Under the pieces are notes generated by a model that was not told where the DNA came from, did not search any database, and saw only the letters and a program-made list of their open reading frames with translations. Shown here in pieces: positions 769-9,999 of a stretch of DNA of 10,000 nucleotides. Location of the stretch: contig VSJD01000194.1 in assembly GCA_008636095.1 (NCBI GenBank), positions 1 through 10,000 on the forward strand, written 5' to 3'. The first letter of the stretch is position 1. Each line of letters opens with the position of its first letter. A program made the translations under genes and the position numbers. This DNA comes from Kiritimatiellota bacterium. GTDB lineage: Bacteria; Verrucomicrobiota; Kiritimatiellia; JAAZAB01.

Positions 769-819
769 CCATGGGCGACCGGATCGTCATAATGAATGAT
801 GGAATTATTTTTCAGGTGG
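769..819 (+). pseudogene. 51-bp fragment of a MalK/UgpC-type ABC ATPase gene
   Basis: By direct comparison, 769-819 matches 6214-6264 inside the intact ATPase gene of this window at 43 of 51 positions, without gaps. The fragment reads in the same frame as the ATPase and encodes MGDRIVIMNDGIIFQV against [16 protein letters not shown], the segment just after the H-loop. Similarity stops abruptly on both sides. The differences fall mostly at third codon positions or give conservative changes, so the source was probably a paralogous ATPase gene that once evolved as a gene, not a recent copy. The fragment is fused in frame to the solute-binding protein/permease gene that follows. It is best read as the scar of a deletion or recombination. 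Confidence 0.7.
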
Positions 820-846
820 ATTTCGACGCGCCCCGGAAAACCAGGG

Positions 847-872
847 CCTCGAGCTTGTCGAGAAGCTCAAGG
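847..872 (+). repeat. REP-like imperfect palindrome
   Basis: Positions 848-856 (CTCGAGCTT) and 863-871 (AAGCTCAAG) form an inverted repeat with 8 of 9 pairs and a six-base loop; the next outer pair (847/872) also matches. The core GAGCTTGTCGA resembles dispersed palindromic repeats common in many bacterial genomes, which I recall but cannot search for here. It lies between the ATPase fragment and the signal peptide of the binding-protein/permease fusion. It overlaps the possible TTG start (855) and the AAGG (869-872) in front of the ATG at 879, so in the mRNA it could fold over the initiation region. Confidence 0.45.
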
Positions 873-878
873 TTAAGA

Positions 879-3602
879 ATGCTGGTCGGTATCTGGGGCT
901 TGCTGATGGTCCTGGCCCCGCTCGCTCGGGCGGGCTGGGTGGAAGACCTCCCGGACAAGACCGTCATCCATCTGAAGATCTTTCAACTGCCCGATCCATC
1001 GAATCCGGATGTGGGTGCCCAGGCCGATGTAGCCGTGATTAAAGAGTTGACCCGCCGGTTTCCCGCTGTGTTTGCGGAGCGTTACCGCGATGTTTATAAG
1101 CGCCATCCTGAGAAATACGGCCGCCATTGCTGGGACCGCGTGGAATTGGTTCTGCACAAGTTTTCCGGTATTACGATCGAAGGCATGGGCATGGATTCCG
1201 GGCCGTTGATGGCCATTGCCGGCGGCATGTCGCCCGATGTCATTTATGTTAATTTCCGGCAATCCGACACCTATATCCAACAGGGATTTTTGTATCCGCT
1301 GGACAAGCCGGAGGACAAGTATTTTTCCAGTCTGACGGCGGCGGAGAAAGCGTTTCGTATTCATCCCAAGATTATGCCTGTCATTGACCGCAAAGGTCCC
1401 GATGGCCAGAAACATATATGGGCCATGCCGATGGGTGGCATCCATGGCAAGGTTGTGCTGTACCGGAAAGATCTGCTGGACGCCAATAATATACCCTATC
1501 CGAACAATGACTGGACTTGGGATGACTTTTTTGCCATCTGCCAAAAAGTGACCGATCCCGGCCAAGGCATCTATGCTACAATCTATCAGATCGGTTTCAG
1601 TGAAAGCTGGTATTGGGTGACGTATCTCTGGTCGGCCGGCGGCGAGGTGATCGAATATGATAATGCCCGGGATGAATGGCGTGCGGTGTTTAACTCCCCG
1701 GCCGGTGTCCAGGCGCTGGATTTTTATACCAGGCTCTGTAACGAGATCTGGTACGACAAAGAAGGCCGCAAACGCTATGGTTATGTGTTGCGGGATTCCT
1801 CTTCGGAAAACCGGCGCAAATGGGAAATGGGCCAGATGGCTTTCTACACCACCTATATTAATGAAAAGACGTTCGCGCAAATCAATCCGGATATTACCGG
1901 CATGGTGGCGGTGCCCAAAGGCCCCGGGGGTCATCGGGGCGCGGAATTGAACTCGCAGATGCAGGGGATTTTCGCGGGCGTCAAGGATCCGGTGATCCGC
2001 GATGCGGCCTGGGAATATATGCGTTTTTTGGATTGTGAAGACGCCGTCCGTATTAGGACCAGCATTCAAGTGGAAGGGGGCTTGGGGCGCTTTATCAATC
2101 CCCGCTATTTGCGGATGTTCGGCTACGAAGATATCGTCCGTCTGGCCCCGAAAGGAATCGAGGAGTGTTTTAATATTGCGATTGAGACCGGCCGGCCGGA
2201 GCCCTACGGACGCAACTGTCAGTTGGTTTACGACATGCTGACCAAACCGCTGGTAAAGGCGGCGCAGATGACCATTGCCGGTACGATGCCGACCGATCCC
2301 ATCCAGCGGGCCGAGTTCCTGCAATCCATTCTGGATGAATACGCCTACGAAACCAACGAGAAAATGATTGGGCGGGTATCCCCGCGGGAACTGCTGAAGC
2401 GGCGAATTTCCGCCGGGGTTGTTCTGGTGTTGATTGTTATCGCCTTCGGGTTCGTGTTTCGGAATATCGCCAAAGTGTTTGCGCCGCCGCCCAGTGCTAC
2501 CGGTGTACCGACGGGCTGGGGGTTCCGCAAGTATTTGTGGGCTTATGTGATCCTGCTGCCGGCGATACTGACTATTATCATGTGGCATTATCTGCCTCTG
2601 CTGCTCGGATCCAAGCTGGCGTTCCAGGATTATCGCATCATGGGCGGTTCCACCTGGGTGTGGGTGGACAATTTTGGCGCGGTGCTGTGGGACCTGGAAT
2701 GGTGGGCTTCCGTTTGGAACAGTGTGCGCTATTGCGTCCTGGTGGTGAGCCTGTCATTTCTGCCGCCAGTGATCCTGGCGGTGCTCCTGCAGGAGATTCC
2801 GGTCGGCAAAATTTTATTCCGGACCTTATTTTATTTGCCGGCCGTAATTACCGGGCTGGTGGTAATATATCTTTGGAAATCGTTCTATGATCCGACGGAG
2901 TTCGGCGTATTGAATGCCGTGGTGTTGGCGATCCCGGCCCTGGGCTATATCGCCTTGGCAGTCATTTTCTTCCTGATCCTGTTTTTCTTCGCCAAGCGCT
3001 TATACATTCACCAGCGCTATGTGCTTGCGCTGGTATGTCTGGCGGCTGCGGGCATTGTGGGTTGGTTTTTCTTCAGTTTTGCGCTCCCCATCCTCAATCA
3101 GCCCGGGGCCCACTGGTACCAGTCCCTGTTAAAGACCGCGCCGGAGCCCAGTCGCTGGCTGTTGGATCCCAAAACCGCCATGTTTTGCTGTGTGTTGCCC
3201 ATGGTATGGGCCGGCATGGGGCCGGGCTGTCTGATCTATCTGGCGGCCCTCAAAGGTATCGCGGATGATTTCTATGAAGCGGCCGATATTGACGGCGCCA
3301 CGTTTATTGACAAAATTCTGTTTGTCGTCATTCCCATGCTGAAACCTTTGCTGGTGATTCAATTTGTGGGCGTTTTCATCAGTTCCTGGAACAGCAGCGC
3401 GTTTATCCTGGCCATGACCGGCGGTGCCAGCGGGACTACGGTGGCCGGCCTGCAAATTTTTTACAAAGCCTATATGTACCTGAAATTCGGGCCGGCGACA
3501 GCCATGGCATGGATCCTGGGATTCATGCTGATCGGGTTTACCGTGCATCAGTTGCGCATTTTGTCGCGGCTGGAATTCAAAACCACGGGGGATAAGAAGT
3601 AA
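879..3602 (+). CDS. ABC sugar importer: solute-binding protein fused to MalF-type permease
   Basis: One uninterrupted frame joins two normally separate importer parts. Numbering runs from the upstream ATG at 771 (943 residues). Residues 37-54 form a signal peptide ending ARA-GW. Residues about 60-535 are a family-1 extracellular solute-binding protein, with PDVIYVN (155-161), a GWKP-like sugar-site region WTWDDFF (248-254) and MAFYTTYINE (356-365). A membrane helix (546-563) crosses inward, followed by a cytoplasmic linker (564-585) and a MalF-type permease. The permease's EAA coupling loop is DFYEAADIDGA (833-843), which docks on the ATPase. An extra two-helix hairpin sits at about 717-772. 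The start is uncertain. ATG 879 has AAGG six bases upstream but gives a signal peptide with no basic residues; TTG 855, behind CAGGG, adds the expected arginines; ATG 771 begins inside the ATPase fragment and has no visible ribosome site. The function call is firm; the sugar is unknown. Confidence 0.9.
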   Translation: MLVGIWGLLMVLAPLARAGWVEDLPDKTVIHLKIFQLPDPSNPDVGAQADVAVIKELTRRFPAVFAERYRDVYKRHPEKYGRHCWDRVELVLHKFSGITIEGMGMDSGPLMAIAGGMSPDVIYVNFRQSDTYIQQGFLYPLDKPEDKYFSSLTAAEKAFRIHPKIMPVIDRKGPDGQKHIWAMPMGGIHGKVVLYRKDLLDANNIPYPNNDWTWDDFFAICQKVTDPGQGIYATIYQIGFSESWYWVTYLWSAGGEVIEYDNARDEWRAVFNSPAGVQALDFYTRLCNEIWYDKEGRKRYGYVLRDSSSENRRKWEMGQMAFYTTYINEKTFAQINPDITGMVAVPKGPGGHRGAELNSQMQGIFAGVKDPVIRDAAWEYMRFLDCEDAVRIRTSIQVEGGLGRFINPRYLRMFGYEDIVRLAPKGIEECFNIAIETGRPEPYGRNCQLVYDMLTKPLVKAAQMTIAGTMPTDPIQRAEFLQSILDEYAYETNEKMIGRVSPRELLKRRISAGVVLVLIVIAFGFVFRNIAKVFAPPPSATGVPTGWGFRKYLWAYVILLPAILTIIMWHYLPLLLGSKLAFQDYRIMGGSTWVWVDNFGAVLWDLEWWASVWNSVRYCVLVVSLSFLPPVILAVLLQEIPVGKILFRTLFYLPAVITGLVVIYLWKSFYDPTEFGVLNAVVLAIPALGYIALAVIFFLILFFFAKRLYIHQRYVLALVCLAAAGIVGWFFFSFALPILNQPGAHWYQSLLKTAPEPSRWLLDPKTAMFCCVLPMVWAGMGPGCLIYLAALKGIADDFYEAADIDGATFIDKILFVVIPMLKPLLVIQFVGVFISSWNSSAFILAMTGGASGTTVAGLQIFYKAYMYLKFGPATAMAWILGFMLIGFTVHQLRILSRLEFKTTGDKK

Positions 3603-3695: not shown

Positions 3696-5603
3696 ATGCC
3701 TATCATATCAGCCATCGGACGCAAGCACTGGAAAGTTCGGGCGCTCTTTACCGGTATGTACCTGTTTCTGGTCATCGGCGCCGCCAGTATGGTCTATCCC
3801 TTCATGCTCATGCTCGCCGGCAGTACCAAAAGCGCGGTGGATATCAAGTATTTCGAAGCCATTCCGCGGTTCCTGTACGATGATACCTGGCTCTATCGGA
3901 AACATATCGAAGGCCTGTTCAACGAAAGTTTGATGGATGAAAACGTGGCCTATGACCGGGATGACAGCACCTTTGAAAACGTCGCTCCCCCCGCAACGGT
4001 CAATCAGGGATTACTGAATGAGTGGCGCACGTTCCTGCTGGCCACCCCGCTGCCACTCTATGCTTATCAATGCGGTTATTTGAACGCGCCCATGTCGCGC
4101 ACCATTCCCAGCGGTTTACGTGCGTTTAAACAGGCGCTGATGGCCCGCTATGGGCAGGATATCATTCGGGTTAACCGCGCATTGGGGACGGAATTTGAGA
4201 CTTGGAACAATGTGAGGATCAATGCAAATACCTGTCTGGATCGCCGGAACAATCCAATGGCTACGGCCTTTGTCTCTGCCGGGAACGAGTTCAAGACCCA
4301 ACTACCGGTGGGATGGCGGTCCTATGCATCCCCGGATGGATATTATAAGAAAATGTATATCAAGCCAGTGTATGGCAACGCGATCGACGACTATAACCGG
4401 GAACACGGCACCCGCCATGGTGCCTATGATAAAATCCGGTTGGCGCGCACCTGGGCGGAGAATGGAACTCCCAAGGAACAGGAGGATTGGGAGCAATTTG
4501 TGCGCATGACGCTGTCCCTGCAATGGATTCGGGTGGATGCCGTCGCGTTGCCGGAATATCGTCAATACTTGCAGGCTAAACACGATACGATCGCCATCCT
4601 GAACAAATACTATGGCACGGCGTATCGGAGTTTCAATGATATTCCCCTCATCACGGAGCCGCCCCTGGCCGGTATGGCGCTCAGCGATTGGGAAGCGTTT
4701 ATCGCTGGATGGAAAGATCCGGATACGAAGCGCCTTTATCAGGCGCCGGTCGCGGCCTTGCGGATTCACAGCGTGGATTGGTTGTTCCGCGATTATTTAA
4801 CGCGGAAATACGGTTCGCCCGAAGACCTTAATCGCCGCCTGGACACGCGTTATAAGACGATGGTGGAAATCAGGCCGCCGCAACGGGAGTTCCATTATGC
4901 CTGGTTCCTGGAAAATCGGCGCGCTCTGCGCATAGAATTTGTCACCCGGAATTACAAGACGGTCGCCGAATATATCCTGTTTCACGGACGGGGCATTATC
5001 AATACTGTGATCTATTGCGGCCTGGCCGTGCTGGTAGCCCTGCTGGTGAATCCGCTGGCGGCCTATGCCTTGAGCCGGTATAAGATGTCGTCCACCTATA
5101 AAATCCTGCTGTTTCTGATGGCGACGATGGCCTTCCCGCCCATGGTGACCCAGATCCCCAACTTCCTAATGCTCCGTCAGCTCAATTTATTGAACACCTT
5201 TGCGGCGCTGATTTTGCCCGGTATGGCCAATGGCTATTCCATCTTCCTGCTCAAGGGTTTTTTTGATTCCCTGCCGCGCGAGTTATACGAAAGCGCCGAA
5301 TTGGATGGGGCCAGTGAGTGGACAATTTTTTGGCAATTGACTATGGCGCTGTCCAAGCCTATCCTGGCAGTCATTGCGCTGGCTGCGTTTACGGCGGCGT
5401 ACTCTAATTTCATGTTCGCCTTTGTCGTTTGCCAGGATGAGAAGATGTGGACGTTGATGGTCTGGTTGTATCAATTACAGCAAATGAGCGGACAGTCGGT
5501 CATGTATGCTTCGCTGATTATTGCGGCCATCCCCACCTTTGTCATCTTCCTGTTTTGTCAGAATATCATCATGCGCGGGATTGTGGTGCCGTCCGAAAAA
5601 TAA
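3696..5603 (+). CDS. MalG-type ABC sugar permease with ~385-residue periplasmic insert
   Basis: This is the second membrane subunit of the importer, 635 residues against the usual 270-300. TM1 spans about 16-40. The canonical fold resumes near FVTRNYKTVAEYI (415-427), followed by the N-S/T-V helix INTVIYCGLAVLVALL and AAYALSRYK. The EAA loop ELYESAELDGAS (529-540), leading to KPIL (554-557), contacts the ATPase. Between them, residues about 42-414 form an extracytoplasmic insert. It contains four copies of a motif with an Asn, then GT four residues later and Ile/Val thirteen residues later, at N160, N234, N303 and N379; three copies have YG seven or eight residues before the Asn. [DE]W-x2-F helices occur at 109-113, 264-268 and 331-335. 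The ATG at 3696 begins the TM1-containing frame, but no Shine-Dalgarno sequence is visible because the preceding repeat abuts it. Importer role is firm; the insert's role is unknown and may be sugar or wall binding or docking to the fused binding protein. Confidence 0.9.
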   Translation: MPIISAIGRKHWKVRALFTGMYLFLVIGAASMVYPFMLMLAGSTKSAVDIKYFEAIPRFLYDDTWLYRKHIEGLFNESLMDENVAYDRDDSTFENVAPPATVNQGLLNEWRTFLLATPLPLYAYQCGYLNAPMSRTIPSGLRAFKQALMARYGQDIIRVNRALGTEFETWNNVRINANTCLDRRNNPMATAFVSAGNEFKTQLPVGWRSYASPDGYYKKMYIKPVYGNAIDDYNREHGTRHGAYDKIRLARTWAENGTPKEQEDWEQFVRMTLSLQWIRVDAVALPEYRQYLQAKHDTIAILNKYYGTAYRSFNDIPLITEPPLAGMALSDWEAFIAGWKDPDTKRLYQAPVAALRIHSVDWLFRDYLTRKYGSPEDLNRRLDTRYKTMVEIRPPQREFHYAWFLENRRALRIEFVTRNYKTVAEYILFHGRGIINTVIYCGLAVLVALLVNPLAAYALSRYKMSSTYKILLFLMATMAFPPMVTQIPNFLMLRQLNLLNTFAALILPGMANGYSIFLLKGFFDSLPRELYESAELDGASEWTIFWQLTMALSKPILAVIALAAFTAAYSNFMFAFVVCQDEKMWTLMVWLYQLQQMSGQSVMYASLIIAAIPTFVIFLFCQNIIMRGIVVPSEK

Positions 5604-5615
5604 GGAGCAAGGGTT

Positions 5616-6716
5616 ATGGCGGAAGTCATATTGGATCATGTCTGGAAGAGCTATGGCGGTAATCTCTGGGCGGTCAACGACTTTAATTTGACGATCAAAG
5701 ACAAGGAATTCATGGTATTCGTCGGTCCCTCGGGGTGCGGCAAATCCACGACCCTGCGTATGGTCGCGGGGCTCGAGGAAATCAGTAAGGGTGCGATTTC
5801 CATCGCGGGCCGCGTGGTCAATAATGTGCCGCCCAAGGATCGGGATATCGCCATGGTGTTTCAAAATTACGCCCTGTATCCGCATATGACGGTATACGAC
5901 AATATGGCCTTCGGCCTGAAACTGCGCAAATATAAACGGGCCGAAATCGAGAGCCGCGTACGCGAAGCATCGGATATCCTGGGCATTACCGATTATCTGC
6001 ATCGCAAGCCCAAGGCGCTTTCCGGGGGCCAGCGCCAGCGCGTGGCGGTGGGCCGGGCGATCGTGCGCAAGCCGAAGGTGTTTTTATTTGACGAGCCCTT
6101 GTCCAACCTGGACGCCAAAATGCGTGTTCAAATGCGCGCAGAAATCATCAAGCTGCATGCGCGGTTGGAGGCCACCATGATCTATGTGACGCATGACCAG
6201 GTGGAAGCTATGACCATGGGTGACCGGATTGTAGTAATGAAGGATGGAGTTGTTTTGCAGGTGGCCACGCCGCTGGATTTATATGAGAATCCGGCCAACC
6301 TGTTTGTGGCGGGGTTTATCGGCACGCCGCCGATGAATTTGTTCGAGGGGGTGATCCGTCGCGCGGCAGAAGGCTGGATCTTTGATGGCGAGACCCTGCA
6401 GGTCGCGCTCCAGCCTGACATGCAGGATAAACTGGCCGCCTACGCGGAAAAGAAAGTCGTAATGGGTATCCGGCCGGAGCATGTCGGTTCGCCGGTGGCA
6501 GAGAATACGGTCGGCGCGCCAAAGATCAAGGCGCGTGTGGATGTGGTGGAACCGATGGGCGCCGAGACCTATTTATACATGACAGCCGGGCGGCATACCT
6601 TTATTGCCAAAATTGATCCGCACCGCCGGTGTGCCATGGGCAATGAATTACATTTGGCGTTCCTGAATGCCAAGGCCCATTTCTTTGATCCGGCTACGAC
6701 CAGCCTGATCGTCTAA
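5616..6716 (+). CDS. ABC transporter ATPase, MalK/UgpC/MsmX type
   Basis: Cytoplasmic ATPase that powers the two permeases. All nucleotide-binding motifs are intact: Walker [10 protein letters not shown] (37-45), Q-loop Gln83 in [10 protein letters not shown], signature [14 protein letters not shown] (135-148), Walker B VFLFDE (155-160), D-loop SNLD (163-166) and H-loop His193. Residues about 237-366 are the MalK-type C-terminal OB/TOBE regulatory region, including the typical MGIRPEHV (283-290). The length of 366 residues is normal. The AAGGAG ribosome site (5602-5607) overlaps the TAA of the upstream permease gene, with an eight-base spacing to this ATG, so the two genes are translationally linked. 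Such ATPases handle many oligosaccharides, so the sequence does not fix the substrate; malK, ugpC and msmX are all possible names. A segment of a related gene survives as a 51-bp scar upstream of the importer. Confidence 0.95.
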
Positions 6717-7135: not shown

Positions 7136-8167
7136 TTAGCGTTGCACACGGCCGGAGGCTTCGCCGCCGGCAAGTTTTTCAGCCTCGTCTGCCGTGACGC
7201 GGTTAAAATCGCCGGCAATCGAGTGCTTGAGGCAACTGGCGGCGACGGCAAAATTCAGGGCGGCCTCCGGCGACTTGCCATTGGCCAGTCCGTAAATCAG
7301 CCCGGCCGCGAACGCGTCGCCGCCGCCCACGCGATCCACAATATCGGTTATCTCGTATTTCCGGCTGAGCAGGAACTGCCGACGGTCGTTCAGGCAGGCG
7401 GACCAGCCATTGACATCGGCGCTGTGACTTTCGCGCAGGGTGATGGCAATCAGTTTCAGGTTGGGAAACGTCTTCAGCACCTTATCGGTCAGCGCCTGAT
7501 ATTGGGCGGTATCCAGACTGCCCTTTTCCACCCGTACATCCGCCTTGATCCCCAGCGATTTCTGGCAATCTTCCTCGTTGGCGATGCCGATGTCCACTAA
7601 TTTTACCAGCTCGTTCATGACTTCCGGCGCGGTCTTGCCGTATTTCCATAGCTTGCCGCGGTAATTGAAATCGCAGGAAACGGTCAGCCCGGCCTGCCTA
7701 GCCGCCTGGACCGCTTCCATCGAAAGATCGGCGGCGGATTGACTGATGGCCGGAGTAATGCCGGTAATGTGGAACCAGGTGGCGCCGGCAAATATTTTTT
7801 TCCAGTCCAATGTGCCCGGCTGAGCCAGGGCAAGTGCCGCATGGGCGCGGTCATAAACAACCTTGGAGGCGCGCTGATTGGCCCCGTTTTCCAGGTAATA
7901 AATACCCATGCGGCCGGACCCCCGGACGATAAATGCGGTGTCCACGCCAAAGCGGCGCAGTTCCGCGATACAGGCGTCCCCGATTTCATTTTTCGGCAGG
8001 ACGGTCACAAAAGTTGCATTCACCCCGAAATTTGCCAGAGACACTGCCACGTTGGCCTCGCCGCCGCCAAAGGTTGCTTCCAGGAGCGGCGACTGAAACA
8101 GCCGCTCGAGCCCAGGCGATTTCAAGCGCAACATGATCTCACCAAATGTTACAATGCGTTGGTTCAT
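7136..8167 (-). CDS. kdgK: 2-keto-3-deoxygluconate kinase (PfkB family)
   Basis: Cytoplasmic sugar kinase that phosphorylates 2-keto-3-deoxygluconate (KDG) to KDPG with ATP. PfkB/ribokinase features are clear. They include the N-terminal strand [12 protein letters not shown] (4-15), the substrate glycine motif [15 protein letters not shown] (34-48), CDFNYR (165-170) and the C-terminal signature [12 protein letters not shown] (278-289) with Asp284 as catalytic base. The GGGEANVA and DFNYR segments fit the KDG-kinase branch better than fructokinase or ribokinase. Length, 343 residues, is normal. The start is well supported: AAGGAGGG (complement of 8173-8180) lies five bases before the ATG. It is the last gene of the minus-strand run, 75 bp after the KDPG aldolase gene that consumes its product, which strongly supports the assignment. 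The gap between them holds a short repeat tract. Fructokinase-like specificity is a remote alternative. Confidence 0.9.
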
Positions 8168-8242: not shown

Positions 8243-9208
8243 TCATTTCTTCTGCAACAGATGCACGGCAAAGCCGCCGATTTCCTCTTTCAAATACACG
8301 GCCACGAGCGCGCCGGCGGGATCTTTTTTCGCCGAGTTCAGGTCAATCGCCACGCCCTTGCGCTCCAGCCAGGCCATGGCGCGTACGATGCTGTTGGTGG
8401 CGATGGCGATGTGGCCGTGCGTGCCCGCGCCAAAGCTCTTGTTGATTTCAAGACCCTTGCCGGCGAAGTTGGAGCTGTTGCCTTCCTTGAGCGGCTGATT
8501 GAACATCGTCGCCAACTGCCGGGCGATGCCCAGTGACGCGGTGGCGTCCACCGTGTTTACGCCGATATGGCCAAGATCAAATCCGAGCATGATATTAATT
8601 GCTTCCCGGGTCAGCCTGGTTATCTCGGCAAACTGGCCGGCCTTGATGAATTCGTCCTTGACCATCCAGGTCCCGCCGCAGGCGAATACTTTTGGAAATA
8701 AAATATATTCTGCCAGATTGGCGGCGGTAATGCCGCCGGTAGGAATGAATTTGACCGCGCCGTAGGGTGCGCTCATGGCCTTGAGCGTCTTGATCCCGCC
8801 GAAAGCGTCCGCCGGGAAGAATTTTACAACGTCCACGCCGTGGTCAAGCGCCATCTGGATTTCAGTCGGCGTGGCAATTCCCGGCGTGATCGGCACTTTT
8901 CGGTCAACGCAATATTTGACCACCGCCTGGCTCAGGCCGGGCGTAACGATAAATTTTGCCCCGGCCTTCAGCGCCCGTTCAGCCTGCGCGACGTTTACAA
9001 CCGTCCCGGCTCCGAGGAGAACATCGGGACATTCCGCGGCGATGGCCTTGATGGCGTCCTCAGCGGCGGCCGTCCGGAATGTTATTTCTGCCACCGGGAG
9101 CCCGCCTTCGGCCAGCGCTTTGGCGAGGGGCACGGCGTCCCTGGCGTTGTCTATTTTGACCACCGGGACTATACCCATCTCGTTGATTGTTTTTAATGTA
9201 TCCTGCAT
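8243..9208 (-). CDS. eda: KDPG/KHG aldolase with C-terminal VOC-fold domain
   Basis: Class I aldolase that splits KDPG into pyruvate and glyceraldehyde 3-phosphate. Residues 1-207 are a complete KDPG aldolase: GIVPVV (12-17), AEITFRT (40-46) with the conserved Glu41, GAGTV (66-70), VTPG (88-91), the Schiff-base lysine Lys129 in VVKFFPADAFGG (127-138) and the phosphate-binding TGGI (157-160). Residues about 208-321 add a second domain that the E. coli enzyme lacks. It reads as a complete vicinal-oxygen-chelate fold in two halves: GHIGVNT (213-219) to GLEINK (252-257), then HGHIAIAT (264-271) to GGFAVHLLQ (311-319). His214, Glu254 and His266 are at plausible metal-ligand places. Similar long aldolases exist in some anaerobes, as I recall. 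The start has AAAGGA five bases upstream. It lies 23 bp after the upstream minus-strand gene and precedes the KDG kinase gene. The aldolase call is firm; the extra domain's role is unknown. Confidence 0.92.
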   Translation of the reverse strand: MQDTLKTINEMGIVPVVKIDNARDAVPLAKALAEGGLPVAEITFRTAAAEDAIKAIAAECPDVLLGAGTVVNVAQAERALKAGAKFIVTPGLSQAVVKYCVDRKVPITPGIATPTEIQMALDHGVDVVKFFPADAFGGIKTLKAMSAPYGAVKFIPTGGITAANLAEYILFPKVFACGGTWMVKDEFIKAGQFAEITRLTREAINIMLGFDLGHIGVNTVDATASLGIARQLATMFNQPLKEGNSSNFAGKGLEINKSFGAGTHGHIAIATNSIVRAMAWLERKGVAIDLNSAKKDPAGALVAVYLKEEIGGFAVHLLQKK

Positions 9209-9231: not shown

Positions 9232-9999
9232 TTAAGTTGCCAGGTTTGTTATATTAAGCCGATATACTATTCTATTCCCTTTAACCCTGAAAACCCCTAC
9301 TTTGTAAATACCGTTGCGATTGGGCGCAGAAAATGGTTCCAGGAAGGCCTCAAAGACCGATGGGAAAAGGCATTCAACTATGTATTGATATTTCTGGTAT
9401 GTTACGGAGAATCCGTTCTGAGTGGTATTAATCTTTGCAGTATGCATGCCGTCCGTTTCCAATAAAGGAACTTGCACAAGAAGGTTTGCAATAGAACCGG
9501 AAACAGTATCGGTAATTACCAGGCCATTACTGTCAAGTTGATAATGTTCCGTAACGGATTCACAACCGATCATTGCGCCTTTATATTCCACCTGAAATTC
9601 TATCCCCTGGGGGGTCTCCTTTTGAATATCCGCCTGAACCCGGCGAATTTCATCTGAGAAATCAGCCAGCCAGTGAACATTTCCACGACTATCCTGCCAG
9701 CCAGGACCGATGGCTACGCTTCGCGGCGCTGTTTCAGTTGAAACCAGATACTGGGGATGCGGAACGATAGGCGTGGAAAGGCCCAGCTCGGTTGGAGCGG
9801 CGGCCATGTGTATTCTCCCCAATCCCGTAGCATCATAATGATGATCGGCTTTGGTATCTATTTCGAGATGGTATCCTTTACATGTTGCAAAGACCTTATG
9901 AAAGGCATCGGGAAGGTATGTTATATAACTATCCGTCTCAAAAGGAACCGGTTGTTCTTCTATGCTGTCATCGGCCATGAGATGTGCGAAGCCGAACTG
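9232..9999 (-). CDS. Unrecognised protein, C-terminal part; possible polysaccharide-degrading enzyme
   Basis: The frame is open to the right edge of the window. The first ATG inside it (9976-9978) has no ribosome site, and the seven codons before it (QFGFAHL) read naturally as protein, so the gene probably begins outside. The visible 255 residues are rich in alternating hydrophobic and polar residues typical of beta-sandwich domains, for example the GPGWQDSRGNVHWLADF, NGLVITDTVSG and NRIVYRLNIT segments, with many aromatic residues. No signal peptide or membrane helix is seen in this part. The gene sits first in a run of aldolase and KDG kinase genes, 23 bp before the aldolase. A role in processing a uronate-containing polysaccharide or oligosaccharide is therefore plausible, such as the beta domain of a heparinase-like lyase or glycoside hydrolase. 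I do not recognise the family with certainty. Confidence 0.6.
   Translation of the reverse strand, partial: QFGFAHLMADDSIEEQPVPFETDSYITYLPDAFHKVFATCKGYHLEIDTKADHHYDATGLGRIHMAAAPTELGLSTPIVPHPQYLVSTETAPRSVAIGPGWQDSRGNVHWLADFSDEIRRVQADIQKETPQGIEFQVEYKGAMIGCESVTEHYQLDSNGLVITDTVSGSIANLLVQVPLLETDGMHTAKINTTQNGFSVTYQKYQYIVECLFPSVFEAFLEPFSAPNRNGIYKVGVFRVKGNRIVYRLNITNLAT

Follow-up and report, generated by a model that had tools for sequence, protein, structure and literature searches.

The closest described counterparts of the importer considered here are the maltose transporter of Escherichia coli and two importers with tethered binding domains. The P1 loop of E. coli MalG contacts the binding protein, the long insert of MalF has been equated with the shorter loop between transmembrane helices (TM) 1 and 2 of MalG (PMC3654945), and in OpuA and GlnPQ a binding domain is tethered to a membrane subunit, OpuA also containing a scaffold domain. 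We analyzed a 10,000-nucleotide stretch of DNA (the window) from a Kiritimatiellota bacterium, which is identical in extent to its source contig, VSJD01000194.1, and comes from a 3.8-Mb genome that is 87% complete. The + strand of the window holds an ATP-binding cassette (ABC) sugar-importer operon encoding a CBM9-like protein, a fusion of a substrate-binding protein (SBP) with MalF, a MalG-type permease, and a MalK/UgpC-type ATPase. The importer is of a known kind, the maltose type; what sets it apart is an array of repeats related to glycoside hydrolase family 42 (GH42) in the MalG protein (3696..5603, + strand, 635 amino acids in a single uninterrupted frame). Compared with the MalG/CUT1 permeases of known structure (E. 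coli MalG, 2r6g; AlgM2, 4tqu; SugB, 7cad), this protein carries a repeat array of about 388 residues in its TM1-TM2 loop, and its partner MalF is fused to the binding protein. A search of the openly licensed literature found no description of this importer architecture, which is weak evidence of absence. The anatomy of the array is well supported by computation, and its function is inferred.

Repeat units in the periplasmic loop of MalG

The protein belongs to the MalG (CUT1) permeases by domain match, fold, and motif: BPD_transp_1 covers residues 455-628 with 53.4 bits against a cut-off of 26.4, the fold is that of MalG, and an EAA loop, ELYESAELDGA, can be read in the sequence at residues 529-539. 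Since a PDB structure search with the whole protein returned only transporter permeases among the best 50 matches listed per table, the insert was folded by itself. TM1 is a predicted helix at residues 12-42 (3729..3821, + strand; AlphaFold2 [AF2] secondary structure and hydropathy), and TM2 to TM6, including the EAA loop, occupy 4917..5585 on the same strand (AF2, Pfam, sequence reading, and structure matches). Between TM1 and TM2, hydropathy leaves about 388 residues without a membrane helix. Hydropathy calls TM1 at residues 16-34 and the next TM only at 433-451, and 19-residue means inside the insert peak at 0.88, short of the threshold of 1.6. A first-pass annotation of the window, made from the letters alone, had described such a helix-free stretch after TM1, which is borne out, and had placed an insert of about 385 residues at 3819..4937; the insert is real, but it is slightly longer, spanning residues 45-432 (3828..4991, + strand) and stopping where the hydrophobic part of TM2 begins. 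In the one pair compared, the window and locus L003, dN/dS was 0.315 for the insert and 0.079 for the rest of the protein (the membrane part); selection on the insert is purifying and looser than on the rest of MalG.

The insert consists of five related units. The motif N-x3-[GD]T-x7-9-[IV] begins at Asn160, Asn234, Asn303, and Asn379, the first three of which, unlike the fourth, are invariant in 115 aligned sequences, and 10,000 shuffles of residues 45-435 yielded a mean of 0.04 motifs with a maximum of 2. Ahead of these four lies a fifth, diverged copy at Asn83, recognized by a unit hidden Markov model (HMM) with 43 bits, so that the spacings along N83-N160-N234-N303-N379 are 77, 74, 69, and 76. 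The earlier annotation had the four later positions and the 74/69/76 spacings right but missed N83, and its count of four units is replaced by five; the [DE]W-x2-F helices that it saw between the motifs are present but limited to units 1, 3, and 4. Unit 1 (residues 58-126; 3867..4073), which adjoins TM1, was assigned from its HMM score, profile matches, and the same order of helices. Unit 2 (residues 127-210, N160; 4074..4325), unit 3 (residues 211-280, N234; 4326..4535), and unit 5 (residues 358-407, N379; 4767..4916), the last running into TM2, rest on profile comparisons, the unit HMM, and AF2, and unit 4 (residues 281-357, N303; 4536..4766) on its superposition on 6ptm and on the best Pfam Glyco_hydro_42 stretch, at residues 287-317. 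All five are on the + strand.

With unit profiles cut from the 115 sequences, pairwise matches among units 2 to 5 reached 95.7 to 98.5% probability. Unit 1 matched unit 4 at 90.3% and unit 5 at 79.4%, as opposed to only 10.8% and 4.3% for units 2 and 3. In the control, the five units against 14 membrane-domain windows (70 comparisons) gave 2.3% at most. Shifted by about 77 residues, the profile of the insert matched itself over 228 columns with 99.4% probability; additional matches lay near two- and three-unit offsets. The unit HMM, which was iterated on the array-MalG family itself, scored the five units of the window protein at 35 to 50 bits, and its maximum in 845 shuffled sequences was 4.2 bits; together with the motif shuffles, these decoys exclude a chance motif. 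The AF2 model of the insert by itself (pLDDT, 93.6; pTM, 0.90) contains five like helical units. The internal repeats suspected from the motif were thus recovered both in the profile self-comparison and in a regular predicted structure, the check that the first-pass annotation had proposed; the outcome that it had named as refuting the repeats, a predicted structure lacking them, did not occur.

Relation of the units to GH42 enzymes

It is well supported that the insert repeats, five times over, a helical element of which GH42-type enzymes have a single copy. Pfam Glyco_hydro_42 matches the window MalG with 24.8 bits against a cut-off of 21, a score reached only as the sum of small stretches, none of which alone passes an E value of 1; the best of them pairs residues 287-317 with profile positions 153-188 of 376. 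Against a profile built from 23 GH42 open reading frames (ORFs) of related genomes, with a reference ORF of 675 residues, four units scored 96.0, 95.5, 89.1, and 88.3%, all onto one stretch (160-221 of the reference), unit 1 aligned weakly (22.6%), and the membrane domain used as a control reached 0.5%. The same picture emerges from structures of GH42 beta-galactosidases and related hydrolases (6ptm, 6y2k, and 8ibs), with which the units share one segment in sequence and units 2 and 4 also align in predicted structure; unit 4 (model range, residues 276-349) superposes on 6ptm with a root mean square deviation of 1.4 Å over 62 residues. The segment is shared further by beta-amylase (1ven), an agarase (4bq2), and a GH167 enzyme (9whd). 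The resemblance to GH42 enzymes that the first-pass annotation had seen in the motif therefore holds at the level of Pfam, profile, and structure, and so does the missing catalytic barrel: the insert model consists of helices in five like units, with strands of at most 3 residues and no (beta/alpha)8 barrel.

Neither of the two GH42 catalytic glutamates lies inside the segment aligned to the units, as judged from the reference ORF and from 8ibs. The matched stretch, within positions 160-223, falls after the NE motif of the reference ORF, which we take to be the acid/base site; in 8ibs, whose title gives E160A/E318A as mutated, the matched range of 168-241 lies between E160 and E318 and contains neither residue. 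All five unit alignments lack 5 GH42 residues between GT-x-[FY] and the next W of the reference. A catalytic GH42 domain is excluded, since only one segment matches, repeatedly, and without a barrel.

From the weaker matches of the insert profile, nine unit-containing ORFs other than MalG were picked; each of them had exactly one unit, and all eight of those searched against Pfam were Glyco_hydro_42 matches; in the sample examined, the element is therefore single in enzymes and in tandem, here five times, only in MalG. The idea that homology to one single-copy domain would remove the repeat claim applies in part: each unit is homologous to a single-copy GH42 segment, but the copies here stand in tandem. 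The array was most likely amplified in the P1 loop of MalG. A piece of a barrel enzyme has apparently turned into a stand-alone repeat, which makes a testable case of fold evolution. This relationship also explains why transport proteins give Pfam Glyco_hydro_42 matches; left unrecognized, such matches could raise the apparent number of enzymes in these genomes. In a PDB search with the insert model, no match among the best 50 listed covered the whole array (best TMq, 0.15), and the last ones listed were unrelated proteins, so that this is no proof of a new overall shape. Among viral structures, 18 matches were obtained, none at an E value of 0.001 or better.

Distribution of the array and its fused partner

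A search with the insert found 340 proteins, including that of the window, and all 120 of those listed cover at least 80% of it; most of the 120 bear a beta-galactosidase domain label, and their source names, where given, are mostly ABC permease. The relatives are spread over several phyla in the neighborhood of Planctomycetota and Verrucomicrobiota. Those at the 29 named loci belong to records of Kiritimatiellae, Lentisphaerae/Victivallales, Verrucomicrobia, Planctomycetes/Phycisphaerae, Elusimicrobia, Coatesbacteria, and Cloacimonadota, mostly metagenome-assembled genomes. Within the phylum of the window, 132/288 genomes (107/250 of good quality) match the insert profile at an E value of 1e-5, a count for which at most six candidates were scored per genome and in which weak matches include GH42 enzymes. 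The architecture appears to be widespread in poorly cultivated bacteria.

Among 169 MalG sequences, partial and duplicate entries included, a threshold of 6 bits recognized five units in 131, four in 14, three in 11, two in 5, one in 4, six in 2, and seven in 2; the largest arrays include those of P0083 (739 amino acids, seven units) and P0115 (673 amino acids, six units), and in three Phycisphaerae loci (L025, L026, and L028) unit 1 alone was recognized. The first-pass annotation knew of no MalG with this arrangement; the insert is real, yet it is no lone oddity but belongs to a family with one to seven detectable units. Two relatives (L010:5006-6418 and L029:6423-7892) have inserts with 80 to 100 additional residues, mostly within unit 1, and the additional stretch of the latter contains two CPKC pairs, perhaps a zinc ribbon. 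At L096:1837-5382, a 1182-amino-acid frame, open from stop to stop, has MalG at its C terminus and several hundred unassigned residues ahead of it.

The partner of MalG in the window is a single ORF (771..3602, + strand, 943 amino acids as listed) in which a binding domain is covalently linked to MalF. SBP_bac_1 matches it with an E value of 5.2e-17, and a fusion beside MalG, named in the first-pass annotation, is supported. The SBP occupies approximately residues 60-540 and is followed by an anchor TM at 545-563, a linker, and the TMs of MalF from residue 593. The MalF half was assigned by hydropathy and by BPD_transp_1 at residues 717-924, a match of 17 bits that is below the cut-off of 26.4, as are the MalF/UgpA-type NCBIfam matches. 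The fusion has 1712 relatives at an E value of 0.001, 120 of which were listed. Hydropathy leaves 43 residues between the first two core TM calls of MalF, i.e., no loop of P2 size, and the tether (positions 540-600) is 57 to 66 residues long in 43 of 45 rows, with 79 in L106 and 82 in L108.

Several features of the fusion gene stand apart. A 51-bp stretch at 769-819, in frame where the ORF listed from 771 begins, shares 43/51 bases with malK at 6214-6264 and appears to be what is left of a second malK; the start of the fusion is therefore probably an ATG farther on, near 879. The MalF half has an additional predicted TM hairpin at 2937-3077 (residues 723-769); the region around it (735-803) measures about 66 to 91 residues in many relatives, with 138 in L086, and 14 to 37 in others, so that the hairpin varies within the family. 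At 996-1208 (residues 76-146), a helix region in the first lobe of the binding protein exceeds its counterpart in roughly half of the 45 rows by about 25 residues (about 71 versus 45) and is possibly an additional contact surface.

The fusion lies directly upstream of array-MalG in 28/29 named loci, the contig of the remaining one (L014) beginning inside MalF. A fusion match was obtained in 30/115 genomes, 29 of which, compared by eye, also match the insert profile (G120 does not), with some of these insert matches weak or on other contigs. Of the window and the 29 named loci, only the window itself and L003 have MalK inside the stretch examined.

Possible roles and genomic surroundings

Because the array forms the P1 loop of MalG, the MalF gap is only 43 residues, and the tether is nearly constant, we propose, with about even confidence, that the array acts in the periplasm as a rigid scaffold on which the tethered binding protein docks. 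In this scenario, the array on the MalG side would receive the binding protein and orient it above the translocation pathway, a task that falls to the MalF-P2 region in E. coli and that MalG would here perform with different parts. The position of the array, its repeats, its conservation, and its linkage to the fusion in most named loci are established by computation; the contact with the binding protein and any gating role are steps that we infer. The array resembles MalF-P2 in being a periplasmic domain in the equivalent permease loop, on the face where the binding protein docks. It is not a MalF-P2 domain, since such a domain sits in the first periplasmic loop of the MalF core, whereas the array belongs to MalG and is built of GH42-like helical units. 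Unlike OpuA and GlnPQ, this importer is of the sugar type, with separate MalF and MalG, the binding protein on MalF only, and the array on MalG. A somewhat more tentative proposal is that a fragment of a glycoside hydrolase barrel was excised, moved into MalG, and amplified into a cradle for the MalF-tethered binding protein, docking having been transferred from MalF-P2 and rebuilt out of pieces of an enzyme, which would make this importer a class of its own. The array may be a second solution to the positioning of a binding protein on a maltose-type importer.

Several observations weigh against a tight linkage of array and fusion. In a second set of 20 stretches, most of them picked because their MalG was of unusual length, only 10 (L077-L083, L086, L087, and L091) have an adjacent fusion; it is 2.4 kb off in L090 and adjacent but broken in L093, and none was seen in the stretches L084, L085, L088, L089, L092, L094, L095, and L096, although a contig end lies close to the start of L085 and of L092, and L084 has no recognized MalG membrane part. 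In wider stretches, the fusion lies 4.3 kb (L106, from the L089 genome), 5.6 kb (L107), 2.4 kb (L108), or 8.9 kb (L102, from the L094 genome) off and on the opposite strand in L103, and the stretches L099-L101, L104, and L105 hold a fusion but no MalG. One genome, G017, has an insert match without a fusion match. The helix-1 extension of the binding protein correlates weakly with unit number (rho, 0.49; 45 rows with two duplicates, uncorrected for and confounded by kinship), and short-helix binding proteins also accompany long arrays. Separately, L093 was considered as a split version, with a free binding protein and a free MalF beside array-MalG. There (L093:3582-6223), the SBP-MalF gene is interrupted into two ORFs that overlap by 79 bases, by sequencing error or a real break; the end of the binding-protein ORF reads like the beginning of MalF TM1 and lies across the MalF ORF, which suggests a fusion gene that has been broken.

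Alternatively, the array could be a glycan-binding surface, whose enzyme-derived modules would keep periplasmic oligosaccharides close to the transporter and pass them on to the binding protein. The GH42-type origin of the units would suit such a role, repeated modules could give avidity, and some loci have glycan-active neighbors (a sulfatase and a Melibiase-type protein in L017, GH38 and GH20 in L024). Nevertheless, the 5 GH42 residues that every unit lacks after GT-x-[FY] begin with a W in the reference, the most conserved residues include many at core positions common to the units (N, W, and DW) and others in unit 1, adjoining the membrane, and neighbor genes vary between loci; no shared substrate was found among 19 neighbor ORFs of 7 loci. 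We consider this role unlikely and favor docking over it because of the position of the array and the fused binding protein.

Slightly less likely still is a spacer or tower reaching toward peptidoglycan, the outer membrane, or a porin and placing the importer under an outer-membrane entry point. Such a ruler would be expected to differ in length by whole units, as the relatives do, and the predicted array is confident and regular; however, those 19 ORFs reveal no common partner gene besides the fusion, and the array, which joins one and the same membrane at either end, would need to fold back. Least probable is an old accretion of little function tolerated in the loop, for which dN/dS above that of the membrane part (0.32 versus 0.08, one pair) and the lost or unrecognizable units of L025, L026, and L028, which keep one, would speak, but which is opposed by the 132/288 genomes of the phylum that match the insert profile (at the threshold and with the GH42-containing weak matches given above), by residues invariant across 115 sequences, and by linkage to the fusion in the named loci.

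Around the two permease genes, the operon comprises the gene for the CBM9-like protein (2-745, + strand; window ORF and domain search) and that for the MalK/UgpC-type ATPase (5616..6716, + strand), with ABC_tran, OB_MalK, and TOBE_2 matches and a UgpC subfamily score of 490.9 against a cut-off of 432. Beyond the operon, the - strand encodes a PfkB-family kinase (7136-8167), whose KDG-kinase-type NCBIfam matches are below their own cut-offs, a KDPG aldolase (8243-9208; Pfam and NCBIfam matches), and the end of an ORF without assignment (9232-9999; ORF list). The aldolase has a C-terminal extension of about 115 residues outside its Pfam and NCBIfam matches. The genome of the window also encodes an ordinary MalFG pair without fusion or array units (L109; G000:C190:4691-6426), in open frames of 281 and 299 amino acids.
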